64,000 nt of DNA from Halorubrum ruber (GTDB taxonomy: Archaea > Halobacteriota > Halobacteria > Halobacteriales > Haloferacaceae), in contig NZ_CP073695.1 in assembly GCF_018228765.1 (NCBI RefSeq), positions 1,922,001 to 1,986,000 of the forward strand, given 5' to 3'. A model generated the notes under the pieces. That model ran no database searches, was not told the origin of the DNA, and worked only from the letters and a program-made list of their open reading frames with translations. Below are positions 17,357 to 61,168 of this stretch, in pieces (positions within the stretch are counted from its first letter, which is position 1; each line of letters begins with the position of its first letter). A program made the position numbers and the translations under genes.

Positions 17357-17662
17357 CGGTTCCCCCCGGTCGCCGCTCCGCTCCGGCGGCTTCCGGTCCG
17401 GTTCGGCGTCCGGGCTTCGGTTCCGACTCACGCGTCCCGACTTGGGGGGTTCGGTGGAGAGGAGGACGGCTCGACGGAGCGGAGAGCCAGCCCGATGGCG
17501 CGGTGGGCCCGACCGATCGAGGCGAAGGCACGACCGATCGAGGCGGAGGTACGGTCTGAGAGCCGTCGGGGTGAGAGGTCTGACCCCCCGGAACCGACGC
17601 GGCGGGGAACTCCGAGCTCCTCGCGACCGAGGTCCGGCGACTCCGACCGGGTCCGCCCGCCG

Positions 17663-17677
17663 GTAAGACGGGATTAC
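17663..17677. promoter_or_regulatory. Palindrome GTAA-N7-TTAC
   Basis: Arms 17663-17666 and 17674-17677, extendable to CGGTAA/TTACCG. It ends 19 bp before the T of the promoter at 17696. The same palindrome occurs at 22984 and 47883. Confidence 0.5.
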
Positions 17678-17683
17678 CGCCGG

Positions 17684-22943: not shown

Positions 22944-22983
22944 CTCGGCCGTCCGCGGCGACCGACCGGCGGCCGCCGGCGCG

Positions 22984-22998
22984 GTAAGCCGACGTTAC
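22984..22998. promoter_or_regulatory. Palindrome GTAA-N7-TTAC
   Basis: Part of the perfect 7-bp inverted repeat GCGGTAA (22981-22987) / TTACCGC (22995-23001) between divergent units. Confidence 0.55.
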
Positions 22999-23117
22999 CG
23001 CCGGAGGGCGTTCGGATCGTCGGCCGCGAACCGGCCGAATTCGGGCGACCAGACCGCCGCGTTCGCCTCGGTAAACGATCTCCACGCCTTATGAGCGTCC
23101 GGCGGGAAGGGGGGCCG

Positions 23118-34725: not shown

Positions 34726-35039
34726 CGGGGTACGATCCCCATACCCGGCCGGTAGCGGCGTCCAGGCGACGGCCGAAGACGGGTCTCGAGGGCGCCGCAG
34801 TCGGCGAGTTCGAATCGGAGCGAGGCGGAGTACGGCGGGCGACCGCGCCGGCGGTCCACGCGCTCGGAGCGGATCGCTCCCGCGGATCGACGGACGGAGT
34901 AAGGGCGGGGCGGCCGGAGTGTGGCCAGCGTTACTCGAATTCGGCTCCCGACGTGGCCCGCGTTACTCGCCGCCGGATCGCGGCGGATCGAAACGGCGGC
35001 GACGCGGCGAACCGGCACTCAGCGCCCCCGAGACCGGAG
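34726..35039. other. Divergent intergenic region with duplicated GCGTTACTCG
   Basis: No supported gene. GCGTTACTCG occurs at 34928-34937 and 34960-34969; the same ten bases occur at 58484-58493 before a TrmB-family gene. Confidence 0.55.
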
Positions 35040-35057
35040 GTATGTCCATCGTAACAA
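35040..35057 (+). promoter_or_regulatory. Bipartite promoter element for the CARDB-like secreted protein
   Basis: GTAT-N8-TAACAA. T at 35052 is exactly 32 nt before ATG 35084. Confidence 0.7.
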
Positions 35058-50875: not shown

Positions 50876-50894
50876 GTAACGACCGTCCTAACAA
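50876..50894 (+). promoter_or_regulatory. Bipartite promoter element for the GT2 gene at 50.9 kb
   Basis: GTAA-N9-TAACAA. T at 50889 is 33 nt before ATG 50922. Confidence 0.6.
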
Positions 50895-56987: not shown

Positions 56988-57020
56988 CGTCTCCGTAGGA
57001 CGGAACGCGACGGAGTACGG

Positions 57021-57257
57021 TCAGGAAAACGTGCCGACCCGCTCGCCGTCGACGAGGATCCGGTCGTTGCCGGTGACCTCGACGACGTGGTCCGGCGTCT
57101 CGAACTGGAGCCGCCACGAGTCGCTGTCGTGGGCCACGAGGTCGCGGATCGCGTCGGTCGGGACGTGGTCCTCCAAACAGACGTCGAGTTCGTCGGGCTC
57201 CACCGACTCGGCGTCGGCGATAGCTCGCGCGATCTGTTCTGGGAGGGCTCGCGCCAT
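57021..57257 (-). CDS. HalOD1 output-domain protein
   Basis: A 78-residue protein, the third HalOD1-type domain in 2 kb: LPEQIARAIADAESVEPDEL, VPTDAIRDLVAHDSDSWRLQ and HVVEVTGNDRILVDGERVG. ATG 57257 is preferred over the TTG two codons earlier; TTTTTTACG about 25-30 nt upstream is a plausible TATA box. Confidence 0.75.
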   Translation of the reverse strand: MARALPEQIARAIADAESVEPDELDVCLEDHVPTDAIRDLVAHDSDSWRLQFETPDHVVEVTGNDRILVDGERVGTFS

Positions 57258-57308
57258 TGGCAAAAGTTGCTCGCCGGTCGTAAAAAAGGCTGTCCGTATC
57301 GATCGCCG

Positions 57309-58106
57309 TCAGTCCGCTGGCTCCGGGCCGAGCCGCCACGCGAAGATGGCCTTCAAAACGACGACGAGGCTGTTCGTCTCGCCGGCGCCCCAGATGGCGG
57401 TCTCCGACCGGGGGTCCGTCGGGGACGCGTCCGCGCCGTTGACGAGTACGCTCGCGAGCGTCTCCCGGCCGTCCACCAGCATGATCCGCCCCGCCGGAGT
57501 ATCCGACCAGAGCCACAGCGACTCGAACATCGTCGCCCCGGGGATGTCGTCCTGGATGCGCGCCTGTACCTCCGGGGAGACGCCGCCGAGCTTGATCGTG
57601 ACGCCGCGCTCCGCGGCCGCGCTCAGCGCGTCGATCACCTTGTCGGTGAGGAGGTCCTCGACGGTCATGTAGACGACCTCATCCTCGGCGTCCGCGAGGA
57701 ACTCGACGACCCGTCCGGTGACCGCCTGCTGGCCCGTGACCGTCCACACGCCCTGCTGTTCGGTCCGGTGGCCCGCGGGCTCGAGTTCGCCAAGCGCCGT
57801 CCGCAGGAGCTCGGTCCGGTGTCGGAGCTCGTGTTCGAAGGTCCGGCCCGCGGTCTCGGCGGACGTCGCCCGGAACTCCTTGGGCGACGACTGGAGGACG
57901 TCGACGAGCCCCCGGTCGCGCAGCTCGTCGATCGCGTCGTACACGCGGGTACGCGGCACCGTCGACGCCTGGCTCACCTCCCGTGCCGTCCCCGACTCCA
58001 GACTCGAAAGCGCGACGAACGTCCGGGCGGCGTACTCGCTCAGCCCGAACTGCTCCAGCTGTTCGACGGCGACGGCGCGAGGGTCGTCGGCGGGGTCGTC
58101 GTTCAT
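57309..58106 (-). CDS. TrmB-family transcriptional regulator
   Basis: A 265-residue TrmB-type regulator. The N-terminal winged helix (about 15-85) reads LEQFGLSEYAARTFVALSSL and EVSQASTVPRTRVYDAIDEL. The C-terminal effector region (about 110-265) resembles the TrmB sugar-sensor / PLD-like domain with DEVVYMTVEDLLTDKVIDAL. It may sense a sugar or nucleotide-sugar. It is divergent from a second TrmB gene across 464 bp. ATG 58106 starts the domain; upstream in-frame codons look non-coding. Confidence 0.85.
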   Translation of the reverse strand: MNDDPADDPRAVAVEQLEQFGLSEYAARTFVALSSLESGTAREVSQASTVPRTRVYDAIDELRDRGLVDVLQSSPKEFRATSAETAGRTFEHELRHRTELLRTALGELEPAGHRTEQQGVWTVTGQQAVTGRVVEFLADAEDEVVYMTVEDLLTDKVIDALSAAAERGVTIKLGGVSPEVQARIQDDIPGATMFESLWLWSDTPAGRIMLVDGRETLASVLVNGADASPTDPRSETAIWGAGETNSLVVVLKAIFAWRLGPEPAD

Positions 58107-58570
58107 CGGTGTGGTCGAGCGCGAAAGACAGTCCGGCCACCCTCTGACGGCGTGGCCGGAACGGCACGCGGCAGCGCGGTGGTTGGGACACAGAGCTGAT
58201 CCGCGTGCGATCGAACGGTCGATTCCCACGGGCTTATTCCTTGTGTGATTAACCGGGTTACATAGTTGGCGGGTCAGGCGACGGGCCGCCCCTCCGGGAA
58301 GCTTCTCTGACACTTCGAGCTCTCGAATTTTCTCAGACTCAGGTACGTCTCAAAAAGACGCGAAATACCTCGATGCCCCGGGAGGGAGTTCGGGCCACTG
58401 TGTGATCGAAAGAATAACAGTGTGTCCTTCTTTGGTCAGGCTGTTACGCAAAAAGTCAAAAAAGATTTTTCACCCGGTTTCGGCGTTACTCGCAGAGTAA
58501 CAATACCTATCCGTTCCGGGGGACAATCATCGTCTGAATCTCGGGACGCGCTCCCGAGAGGTTGGGACAC
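58107..58570. other. 464-bp divergent intergenic region between two TrmB genes
   Basis: No supported gene. A+T-rich by local standards, with AAAAAGTCAAAAAAGATTTT at about 58451-58470 and the palindrome at 58485-58501. The minus-strand gene has TGTAACCCGGTTAATCAC about 140 nt upstream. A long regulated promoter region is likely. Confidence 0.6.
58485..58501. promoter_or_regulatory. Perfect palindrome GTTACT-N5-AGTAAC with promoter
   Basis: Arms 58485-58490 and 58496-58501. The right arm continues as TAACAA (T at 58498), the promoter second block. It lies 73 nt before the TrmB gene at 58571 and resembles sites known for halobacterial TrmB (TACT...GAGTA), with a shorter spacer. Confidence 0.65.
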
Positions 58571-59374
58571 ATGGACACATCAGAAAACGTGGCGGAGGCG
58601 GTCGAGATCCTTCAACAGCTCGGCCTGAAGGAGTACGAAGCGCGGTGTTTCGTGGGACTGACCCGGCTCGAGACGGGGACCGCGAAGAAGCTCAGCGAGA
58701 TCACCGAGGTCCCCCGGACCCGCGTGTACGACGCGATACGCGTCCTCGAGGCGCAGGGGTTAGTCGAGATCCAGCACTCGAGCCCCCAGCGGTTCCGCGC
58801 GGTCCCGCTCGAAGAAGCGACGGAGACCCTCCGCGACCAGTACGAGGACCGCGTCGAGCGGCTCCGCGGCGCCCTCGACACGGTCGACCTCGCCGACGAG
58901 GACGATTCCAAGCCCGCCCAGCAGATCTGGGCGATAACCGGGAGCGACGCGATCGAGAACCGGACGGGCCAGCTCATCGAGAAGGCGACCGAGGAGATCG
59001 TGTTGGTCCTCGGCGACGAGTCGCTGCTCACGGACGAGCTCGTCGAGACGCTCAACGGCGTCGACGGCGACACCGACCTGATAATCGGCGCGCTGACCGA
59101 GCCGCTCCAGGACGAGATCCGCGCGGCCGTGCCGGACGCCACGACGTTCGTCTCCGGGCTGGAGTGGCTGCGCGGCACCGACCCGGTCGACGACGAGACG
59201 GCGGTCGGGCGGCTCCTCCTGGCCGACCGCTCGACGCTGCTCGTGAGTTCGATCCTCCGACAGAGCGGCCGGGAACAGGCGATCTACGGCGAGGGGTTCG
59301 GCAACGGCCTCGTCGTGATCTCGCGCCGGCTGATGGCGCAGGGGCTGATTCCCGGCCGCGACCCGAAACCCTGA
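58571..59374 (+). CDS. TrmB-family transcriptional regulator
   Basis: A 267-residue paralogue of the divergent gene. LQQLGLKEYEARCFVGLTRL and KLSEITEVPRTRVYDAIRVL give the winged helix (about 12-80), and the C-terminal domain includes EEIVLVLGDESLLTDELVET. The DNA-binding recognition helix is nearly identical to that of the neighbour (TEVPRTRVYDAI versus STVPRTRVYDAI), so both may read the same sites. It is the best local candidate to control the GTAA/TTAC promoters of the glycan locus, an inference. Confidence 0.87.
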   Translation: MDTSENVAEAVEILQQLGLKEYEARCFVGLTRLETGTAKKLSEITEVPRTRVYDAIRVLEAQGLVEIQHSSPQRFRAVPLEEATETLRDQYEDRVERLRGALDTVDLADEDDSKPAQQIWAITGSDAIENRTGQLIEKATEEIVLVLGDESLLTDELVETLNGVDGDTDLIIGALTEPLQDEIRAAVPDATTFVSGLEWLRGTDPVDDETAVGRLLLADRSTLLVSSILRQSGREQAIYGEGFGNGLVVISRRLMAQGLIPGRDPKP

Positions 59375-59509
59375 GTCGCGGCTCGGCACGCCGTCGCGAG
59401 CGACCTGTTAGCGGTACTCGCCAGTGACCTCGCGATCGAGACGCGCTTTTCGGCGACGAGGAGGCCCGGAGCACGGTCCACGAAGGACGGGTCGGGGGCG
59501 AATCGCACG

Positions 59510-59527
59510 GTAGGACACGCATACTAA
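59510..59527 (+). promoter_or_regulatory. Bipartite promoter element for the flippase 2 unit
   Basis: GTAG-N8-TACTAA. T at 59522 is 40 nt before the short ORF at 59562. Confidence 0.5.
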
Positions 59528-59561
59528 ACCGGCCGTCGTCGCCCTACTGGAACGTATCTAT

Positions 59562-59672
59562 ATGACAGGTCGGCGTCTCCCCGAACCGGACGCAGTCGCG
59601 ACGAGCTTCTCGGCGGACCGCTCCGTCCCCCACCTTCCCACGGACGTCGACGGCGTCCGATTCAGCCGATGA
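59562..59672 (+). CDS. Upstream ORF (36 codons) coupled to flippase 2
   Basis: Starts MTGRRLPEPDAVATSF and ends DVDGVRFSR; its TGA overlaps the flippase ATG as ATGA (59669-59672). Confidence 0.45.
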   Translation: MTGRRLPEPDAVATSFSADRSVPHLPTDVDGVRFSR

Positions 59673-61168
59673 GACGGCTGCTGCGGTGGCTCAAGCGGGC
59701 GCTCTCCCCGTCCGGCAGTCTCTCGTCGCGCACGGTGACGAACGGCATCTGGACCGCAGTCACCAACGCCAGCGGACAGCTCCTCCAGATCACGTTGCTC
59801 GTCGTCCTCGCCCGTCTCCTCTCGCCGGCGGACTTCGGGCTGTACGGGATCGCGACGCTCACGCTCACCGCCCTCCAGCGGTTCTCGCGGCTCGGCTTCG
59901 ACACGGCGCTCATCCAGCGACAGGAGGAGAACGTCGACCCCTACCTCGACACCGTGTTCACCCTCCAGATCCTCCGCGGGGCCCTCATCGCCGGGATCAC
60001 GATCGTCGGCGCTCCCCTCATCGCGACCTTCTTCGCGGAGCCGCGCGCGACGGCGATTCTGCGGGCGATCGCTCTCGTAATGCTGTTACAGGCGCTGTAC
60101 AACCCGGGGGCGGTCTACTTCGAGAAGGACCTGAAGTTCCACAAGGAGTTCGCGATGTCGTTCAGCGGCGCCGCCTCCCGGTTCGTCGTCGCCGTCGGCT
60201 ACGCCCTCGTCACCCCGAGCGTGTGGGCGCTCGTCGCCGGGGCGGTCGTCGGCAACCTCGTCCAACTGGTGGCGTCGTACGTCATCCACGACTACCGCCC
60301 GTGGCCCCGGTTCGACCGCGACCGCGCCGCGATGCTGATAAACTACGGGAAGTGGATATTCGGAGAGTCGGTGATATCCTTCTTTTACACCGACGGCGAC
60401 GACATCTTCGTCGGGCGACTTCTCGGCTCCGCCAGCCTCGGCCTGTATCAGGTCGCCTATCGGCTGTCGAACGCGCCGGCGACCGAGATCGCACACACCA
60501 TCTCCCGCGTGTCGATGCCCGCGTACTCGAAGATCCAAGACGACGAGGCCGCCCTTCGGGAGGGATTCCACCGGGTCCTCCAGTTCTCCTCGCTGGCGTC
60601 GATCCCGATGGGCGTCGGGATCGCCGTCGTCGCACCCGTCTTCGTCCCGACCTTCCTCGGCGACGGATGGGGGGCGATGGTCGCGCCAATGCAGGTACTC
60701 GCGGTCTTCGGCGTCCTCCGCTCGGTCCGGACCTGCGCGTCGCCGCTGTTCCGCGCGCTCGGCCAGCCCGACTACAACGCGAAGATCCACGCGATCCGGC
60801 TGGTTCTCATGGTGGTCACGATCTATCCGCTGACACAGGCGTACGGGCTCGTCGGGACGGCGCTGTCGGTCCTGGTAACGAGCGTCGTCGGCATCCCGAT
60901 CGCGACGGTGCTCGTGCTCCGGCTTATCGACGACGATCTGCGTTCGCTCGTCGCGGTCGTGGCGGTGCCGGTCGCGGGGAGCCTGCTCATGGGCGCCTGT
61001 GCGCTCGCCGTCCGGCGGGCCGTCACCGCGACGACCGGGCCGGCCGTTTCGTTCGTCGCCACGGTGCTCACCGGAATCGCGGTGTACGGGCTCTTCCTGC
61101 TCGCTGCCGAGCGGCGGTACGAGATCGGGCTTCAGGCGTTGCTCGGTCAATTCAGACGGAGCCTCTGA
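59669..61168 (+). CDS. Wzx-type oligosaccharide flippase 2
   Basis: A 499-residue PST/Wzx-family flippase with about 12-14 membrane helices, paralogous to 49217-50722. Shared blocks include ARLLSPADFGLYGIATL, FSRLGFDTALIQRQEEN and QVAYRLSNAPATEIAHTISR. A second flippase suggests either two glycans or two export steps. The ATG lies in ATGA with the upstream ORF. Confidence 0.9.
   Translation: MRRLLRWLKRALSPSGSLSSRTVTNGIWTAVTNASGQLLQITLLVVLARLLSPADFGLYGIATLTLTALQRFSRLGFDTALIQRQEENVDPYLDTVFTLQILRGALIAGITIVGAPLIATFFAEPRATAILRAIALVMLLQALYNPGAVYFEKDLKFHKEFAMSFSGAASRFVVAVGYALVTPSVWALVAGAVVGNLVQLVASYVIHDYRPWPRFDRDRAAMLINYGKWIFGESVISFFYTDGDDIFVGRLLGSASLGLYQVAYRLSNAPATEIAHTISRVSMPAYSKIQDDEAALREGFHRVLQFSSLASIPMGVGIAVVAPVFVPTFLGDGWGAMVAPMQVLAVFGVLRSVRTCASPLFRALGQPDYNAKIHAIRLVLMVVTIYPLTQAYGLVGTALSVLVTSVVGIPIATVLVLRLIDDDLRSLVAVVAVPVAGSLLMGACALAVRRAVTATTGPAVSFVATVLTGIAVYGLFLLAAERRYEIGLQALLGQFRRSL

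Follow-up and report, generated by a model that had tools for sequence, protein, structure and literature searches.

Only a small number of archaeal small-RNA targets are known to have been defined by experiment, and most of these come from a single genus. In Methanosarcina mazei, sRNA162 is encoded beside the transcription-factor gene MM2441 and masks its ribosome-binding site, and the same RNA also makes contact with the 5' UTR of an adjacent gene (PMC3510493). In the copy control of plasmid pMV158, the repressor CopG and the antisense RNA RNAII jointly fix the output of a single gene, that of the replication initiator, with the RNA acting at translation (PMC4485353). Among regulators of the TrmB family, sugar-sensing members carry the PF11495 domain and residues around G320/E326 near the C-terminus, whereas the 264-aa TrmBL2 and TrmBL3 are devoid of both (PMC4158304; PMC10817205).

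We analysed a 64,000-nt stretch of the Halorubrum ruber genome (the window), which holds two divergent TrmB-HTH genes, P1 (58571-59374, plus strand, 267 aa) and P2 (57309-58106, minus strand, 265 aa, 36% identical to P1). With a probability of about 0.7, the region between them (58107-58570) would control a module conserved among haloarchaea, one that combines operators with an antisense RNA pairing with the P1 leader, so that the P1 regulator is probably under dual control by a DNA-binding protein and an antisense RNA. In the proposed mechanism, TrmB-type dimers (P1 and/or P2) would occupy three operators, repressing the two promoters or keeping them in balance, and a minus-strand RNA would start just downstream of operator 1 and display CCCAACC in a hairpin loop. 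This loop would pair with GGUUGGG of the P1 mRNA over a contact of ~11 bp, and the resulting duplex would block ribosome access to P1, whose output would be set jointly by the transcriptional and the antisense-RNA layers. Which protein binds the operators, and in which direction each step acts, is here what we infer. Such a module would resemble sRNA162/MM2441 in that an archaeal RNA encoded beside a regulator gene acts on the ribosome-binding region, as predicted here from sequence. However, sRNA162 is 191 nt long, pairs through a single-stranded linker with an ArsR-type target and has homologues in only two other Methanosarcina species (PMC3510493), whereas the P1 module would use a hairpin loop against a TrmB-type target and is found in many haloarchaeal families. 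Likewise, it would share with pMV158 the setting of one gene's output by a repressor and an antisense RNA at translation (PMC4485353), but its target is a regulator gene and its RNA, unlike RNAII, is encoded divergently without target overlap.

Membership of both proteins in the TrmB family is evident from the PF01978 HTH, which scored 71.8 bits in P1 and 63.6 in P2 against a gathering score of 25.6, and the Tyr-Asp pair of the recognition helix (Y53, D54) is invariant across 36 sequences. The sugar-binding domain PF11495 found no match in P1, and in P2 it reached 19.1 bits (cut-off 22.2) over ~66 of its 233 positions; neither protein thus has the complete lobe that typifies sugar-sensing TrmB. 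The haloarchaeal TrmB equivalog NF047392 scored 55.3 and 53.4 bits, far below its cut-off of 500. Rather, P1 and P2 are TrmBL2-like, that is, of about 264 aa with a TrmB HTH and without the sugar lobe, and the predicted fold lies nearest to TrmBL2. Sugar sensing by P1 or P2, of sugar or NDP-sugar as the sequence-only reading had it, was therefore rejected on domain content, given their 265-267 aa, the want of a complete PF11495 and the TrmBL2-like fold. TrmBL2/TK0471 of Thermococcales (PDB 5bpd, 5bqt) resembles P1 in length, HTH and absent sugar lobe and is the closest by both sequence and fold, at an identity of ~20%. As a chromosomal protein, TrmBL2 binds DNA broadly (PMC4158304), whereas the P1 module shows a specific conserved dyad. 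In Halobacterium (VNG1451C) and Haloarcula, sugar-sensing TrmB has the PF01978 DNA-binding domain in common with P1 and P2, and its site is partially palindromic like the P1 operator, but it differs from them in its ~350-360 aa, its PF11495 sugar domain and its metabolic regulon (PMC10817205). The TrmB-like regulator family to which P1 and P2 belong is widespread and largely uncharacterised in haloarchaea.

In the P1 mRNA, a GGTTGGG(ACAC) stretch is flanked by a leader hairpin on one side and by the start codon on the other. The hairpin (TCTCGGGA-CGCGC-TCCCGAGA, 58539-58559, plus strand) abuts element B (GGTTGGGACAC, 58560-58570, plus strand), which lies directly before the P1 ATG and complements the loop bases of hairpin 1, a predicted minus-strand RNA structure at 58162-58210 with its CCCAACC loop at 58187-58181. 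Read on the plus strand, this loop and its closing bases constitute element A (GTGGTTGGGACAC, 58179-58191), which matches element B. A leader stem of at least 6 bp occurs in 41 of 87 loci, versus 6.8% in shuffles, and is built from 28 different stems. Comparison of orthologous loci revealed that the P1 start-region variants GGTTGGGACCC, GGTTGGGCC, GGTTGGGCTC, GGTTGGGACCA and GGTGGGGACCA are each found as the same variant in the upstream loop, the co-changing suffixes across Halobacteria being ACAC, ACCC, GCC, GCTC and ACCA. A and B fall into the same suffix class in 86 of 101 genes (ACA/ACA 58, CC/CC 19, ACC/ACC 8, CT/CT 1), and permuted A/B partners reached the observed pairing in 0 of 5000 trials; the permutation, like the Fisher tests, is uncorrected for relatedness. 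On the P1 tree, complementarity is kept through sequence change on about four independent co-changes (CC once, ACC twice, CT once). One locus (L201) carries TGGTGGGGACCA in both loop and target, and another (L191) a 14-nt match. The duplex energy was −17.9 kcal/mol with the own partner versus −13.4 kcal/mol between classes, and the hairpin loop region of the window would pair with the P1 leader at −26.5 kcal/mol.

The two elements are also lost together: element A accompanies 80 of 111 genes with an intact B and 1 of 20 with a degenerate B, the 111 including loci whose A, one mismatch off, was missed by the strict rule. Intact B without a recognisable A occurs, for example, in L024, L039, L055 and L061, where A seems truly absent. 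At some loci a loose automatic search for element A fell on a false hairpin within P2 at about −580, and a separate element table was used there. Comparative genomics yields a predicted hairpin RNA, the precise site that it would target and, in many haloarchaeal families, natural variants that match between the two. Such variants lend themselves directly to compensatory mutation as a test of whether a loop controls a ribosome site in archaea. We propose repression, and not activation, because the contact adjoins the start codon. The same pairing might act with the opposite sign, the minus-strand RNA activating P1 or the P1 mRNA regulating P2 through the contact; binding of the RNA could remodel the leader hairpin that abuts element B, and in loci with both genes the loop-target contact also touches the P2 leader. 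The predicted duplex, however, covers the nucleotides directly before the P1 AUG, and we consider this opposite sign unlikely, if worth keeping in sight.

We further assessed hairpin 1 by folding, covariation and strand bias. In the window it folds at −23.9 kcal/mol (z −4.2). In alignment A1 (23 in-register sequences), 9 of 18 pairs changed on both sides, with 16 two-sided cells versus 5.0 in shuffled alignments. Clade A4, which comprises lone P1 genes from other families with different stem sequences and is independent of A1, had 10 of 15 pairs changed on both sides, 31 two-sided cells versus 9.9 shuffled, and 92.9% pairing versus 37-48% when the arms were slid; de novo prediction with RNAalifold agreed with the hairpin 1 structure in this clade. 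Hairpin 1 thus covaries as a structured RNA does. Read on the minus strand, clade A4 holds ~38 G-U versus 4 A-C mismatches, as counted from the alignment tables, and isolated mismatches in hairpin 1 are 36 G-U versus 12 A-C; this excess of G-U over A-C indicates an RNA encoded opposite to P1. The strand was assigned from isolated mismatches and the in-register clade only, a looser test that included helix ends and whole arms giving 138 G-U and 117 A-C.

These data bear on whether elements A and B (GGTTGGGAC as DNA) could instead be direct-repeat sites of a protein, with the hairpin incidental. Both lie in the same plus-strand orientation and co-change, as the sites of one protein would. Yet A is placed within the loop of a hairpin whose stem differs between clades and still keeps pairing, the stem mismatches are G-U with hardly any A-C on one strand, the sites of TrmB-type proteins are a different, palindromic motif, and the two elements occupy distinct positions, A between the operator-1 promoter and P2 and B directly before the ATG. 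Stem covariation and strand bias disfavour a plain DNA repeat, which we hold to be decidedly unlikely. Genome-wide tests relied on pattern and model searches. The hairpin model gave one strong match in the H. ruber genome and, in 99 genomes, 34 of its 38 matches lay on the strand opposite to a P1 gene and no more than 600 bp upstream of it. Rfam 15 returned no family match up to E = 1 for 57000-59700, and a literature search turned up no account of a small RNA beside a gene of this kind; the hairpin RNA is apparently undescribed so far.

A TATA-like element near 58235, ~25 nt from the start of the hairpin, would place the transcription start at the hairpin. Downstream of hairpin 1, a second hairpin (UCCGGCCAC..GUGGCCGGA, 58132-58160, minus strand) is followed by the U-rich CUGUCUUUCG; this hairpin 2 is present at most loci and looks terminator-like in some loci without P2. 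Loci devoid of P2 keep the operator-1 box ~56-65 bp from element A, then hairpin 1, and hairpin 2 of lone loci ends in a U tract in L064 (UUUUU), L066 (UUUU), L080 (UUUUUU) and L070/L075 (UUU). In P1/P2 pair loci hairpin 2 stays at a kept offset (median 27 nt) and the U tract is mostly weak. Where P2 is missing, the minus-strand RNA would be a free small RNA, and where P2 follows, the P2 leader, a free small RNA in pair loci being uncertain. This RNA and both of its ends, like the leader of P1, are sequence predictions. That one RNA serves both as the P2 5' leader and as a trans-acting antisense RNA against P1, with two TrmB-like proteins sharing the three operators, we propose tentatively, at somewhat less than even odds; if true, this would be a two-gene, two-layer switch with a small-RNA/mRNA pair occurring across many families of Halobacteria in unrelated contexts. 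Placement of the hairpin within the P2 leader of pair loci, where hairpin 2 could serve as an attenuator, would also suit a cis-acting leader of P2 only, with a third factor, RNA or protein, binding both leaders. But the hairpin and the operator-1 box persist in loci without P2 and, as RNAs, loop and target are complementary rather than alike, which makes a purely cis-acting leader quite improbable.

At the transcriptional layer of the preferred module, the palindrome GTTACTC-GCA-GAGTAAC (GTTACTCGCAGAGTAAC, 58485-58501) lies 70-86 bp upstream of the P1 ATG (58571) and, as the sequence-only reading had placed it, in the promoter of one of two divergent TrmB-family genes. Its right arm, AGTAACAA, continues into the conserved P1 promoter block ACAATACCTATCC (58500-58512, plus strand) uncovered by comparison of orthologous upstream regions. 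The exact palindrome occurs once in the 3.02-Mb genome, with no other site at up to one mismatch in a pattern search. As a palindrome it is nevertheless unremarkable, 7-bp arms around a 3-bp spacer being common in the window (13 versus 18 expected), so that the functional case for this one rests on conservation. Orthologous P1 promoters read GTYA-N9-TRACAA, with spacing identical to that of the window palindrome: the left half-site GTYA stands at exactly N9 in 46 of the 72 loci having the right arm, while other offsets score 0-1. Upstream regions of haloarchaeal P1 relatives (80 sequences fetched, more added from whole genomes) have GTCAt-N5-gAGTGACAATACCTATCCGT in common, and the extended box AGTRACAANRCCTAT gave 28 matches in 99 genomes, nearly all directly 5' of a P1 orthologue, versus a handful for the reversed control pattern. 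On this comparative evidence, the palindrome is functional.

The same dyad recurs further upstream. GTNA-N9-TNAC was found 110 times upstream of P1 orthologues beyond the promoter copy versus 5.5 in shuffles, with an excess only at spacing k=9 and two clusters at ~−180 and ~−254, which therefore evidences three copies of one operator in the intergenic region. These are operator 1 (GTGATTAACCGGGTTAC, 58245-58261), at the promoter of the predicted minus-strand RNA and P2; operator 2 in the middle (GTGATCGAAAGAATAAC, 58402-58418), from the dyad search and intergenic comparison; and operator 3 (GTTA-N9-TAAC, 58485-58501), which is the palindrome itself and adjoins the P1 promoter block. The two outer operators are located at the two promoters. 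The window as a whole holds 13 such dyads where shuffles give 4.1, and three of the 13 cluster in a 260-bp span of the P1-P2 intergenic region. Autoregulation by one of the two TrmB-type proteins is probable. Sugar-sensing TrmB binds TACT-N7-8-GAGTA. Operator 3 also reads TACT-N4-GAGTA, and the conserved dyad is GTNA-N9-TNAC. Elsewhere in the window, intergenic dyads of the same type at 50876 (before a GT2 gene), 53999 (near glmS) and 54908 (before a DUF7344 gene) are leads to possible further targets.

The divergent P1-P2 pair was recovered in 58 distinct haloarchaeal loci, with intergenic lengths mostly of 360-400 bp (324-503 bp overall; 464 bp in the window). Contexts of the pair are unrelated, include plasmids, and comprise plasmid replication genes, transporters, stress genes and, rarely, polysaccharide genes, and a match to any of nine glycan proteins of the window stood within reach in 7 of 86 orthologous loci. 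The palindrome is, by this distribution, part of a self-contained regulatory module rather than a glycan-locus switch, and the idea of a paralogue devoted to surface glycan synthesis found no support. Control of a locus-wide surface-glycan regulon by a sugar- or NDP-sugar-sensing TrmB paralogue through the same half-sites is highly improbable and was rejected: P1 indeed borders a glycan cluster (flippases, GT2, GlmS, GlmM) and dyads stand at 50876 and 53999, but neither protein has a complete sugar-binding lobe, the pair sits elsewhere in unrelated contexts with few glycan matches, and the other palindromes of the window have reversed half-sites. In a viral contig collection, no relative was found. 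Three loci (L053, L054 and L136) have lost element B together with the loop of the upstream hairpin, while L053 and L136 at least retain the divergent genes. One P1-like subfamily (L174-L180, L079), devoid of GGTTGGG, has its own conserved leader, roughly CATGACAGGACCACCTAATG; in it no matching upstream repeat of at least 9 nt was found.

As for the same half-sites recurring across the locus, two operator geometries had been mixed. GTAA-N7-TTAC is present at 17663, 22984 and 47883, that is, three copies in the window versus 0 in shuffles, out of 10 genome-wide. Its half-site order, GTAA..TTAC, is the reverse of the TTAC..GTAA of the operator, and GTAA-N7-TTAC was for this reason rejected as a relative of the P1 operator. 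The longer GGTAA-N7-TTACC occurs only twice in the genome, at 17662-17678 and 22983-22999, within 5.3 kb, and this pair is probably the site of a separate regulator. GCGTTACTCG was confirmed at 34928 and 34960 and in the palindrome region, at 58483; the first two, offset by 32 bp, form a direct repeat upstream of 35085, where a predicted secreted protein starts. Boxes of the form GTAACAATG(T/C)CG at 35051 (plus strand) and 49142 (minus strand) stand 33 nt before the ATG of a predicted secreted protein and of an FG-GAP protein, respectively, which suggests a promoter type common to leaderless surface-protein genes.
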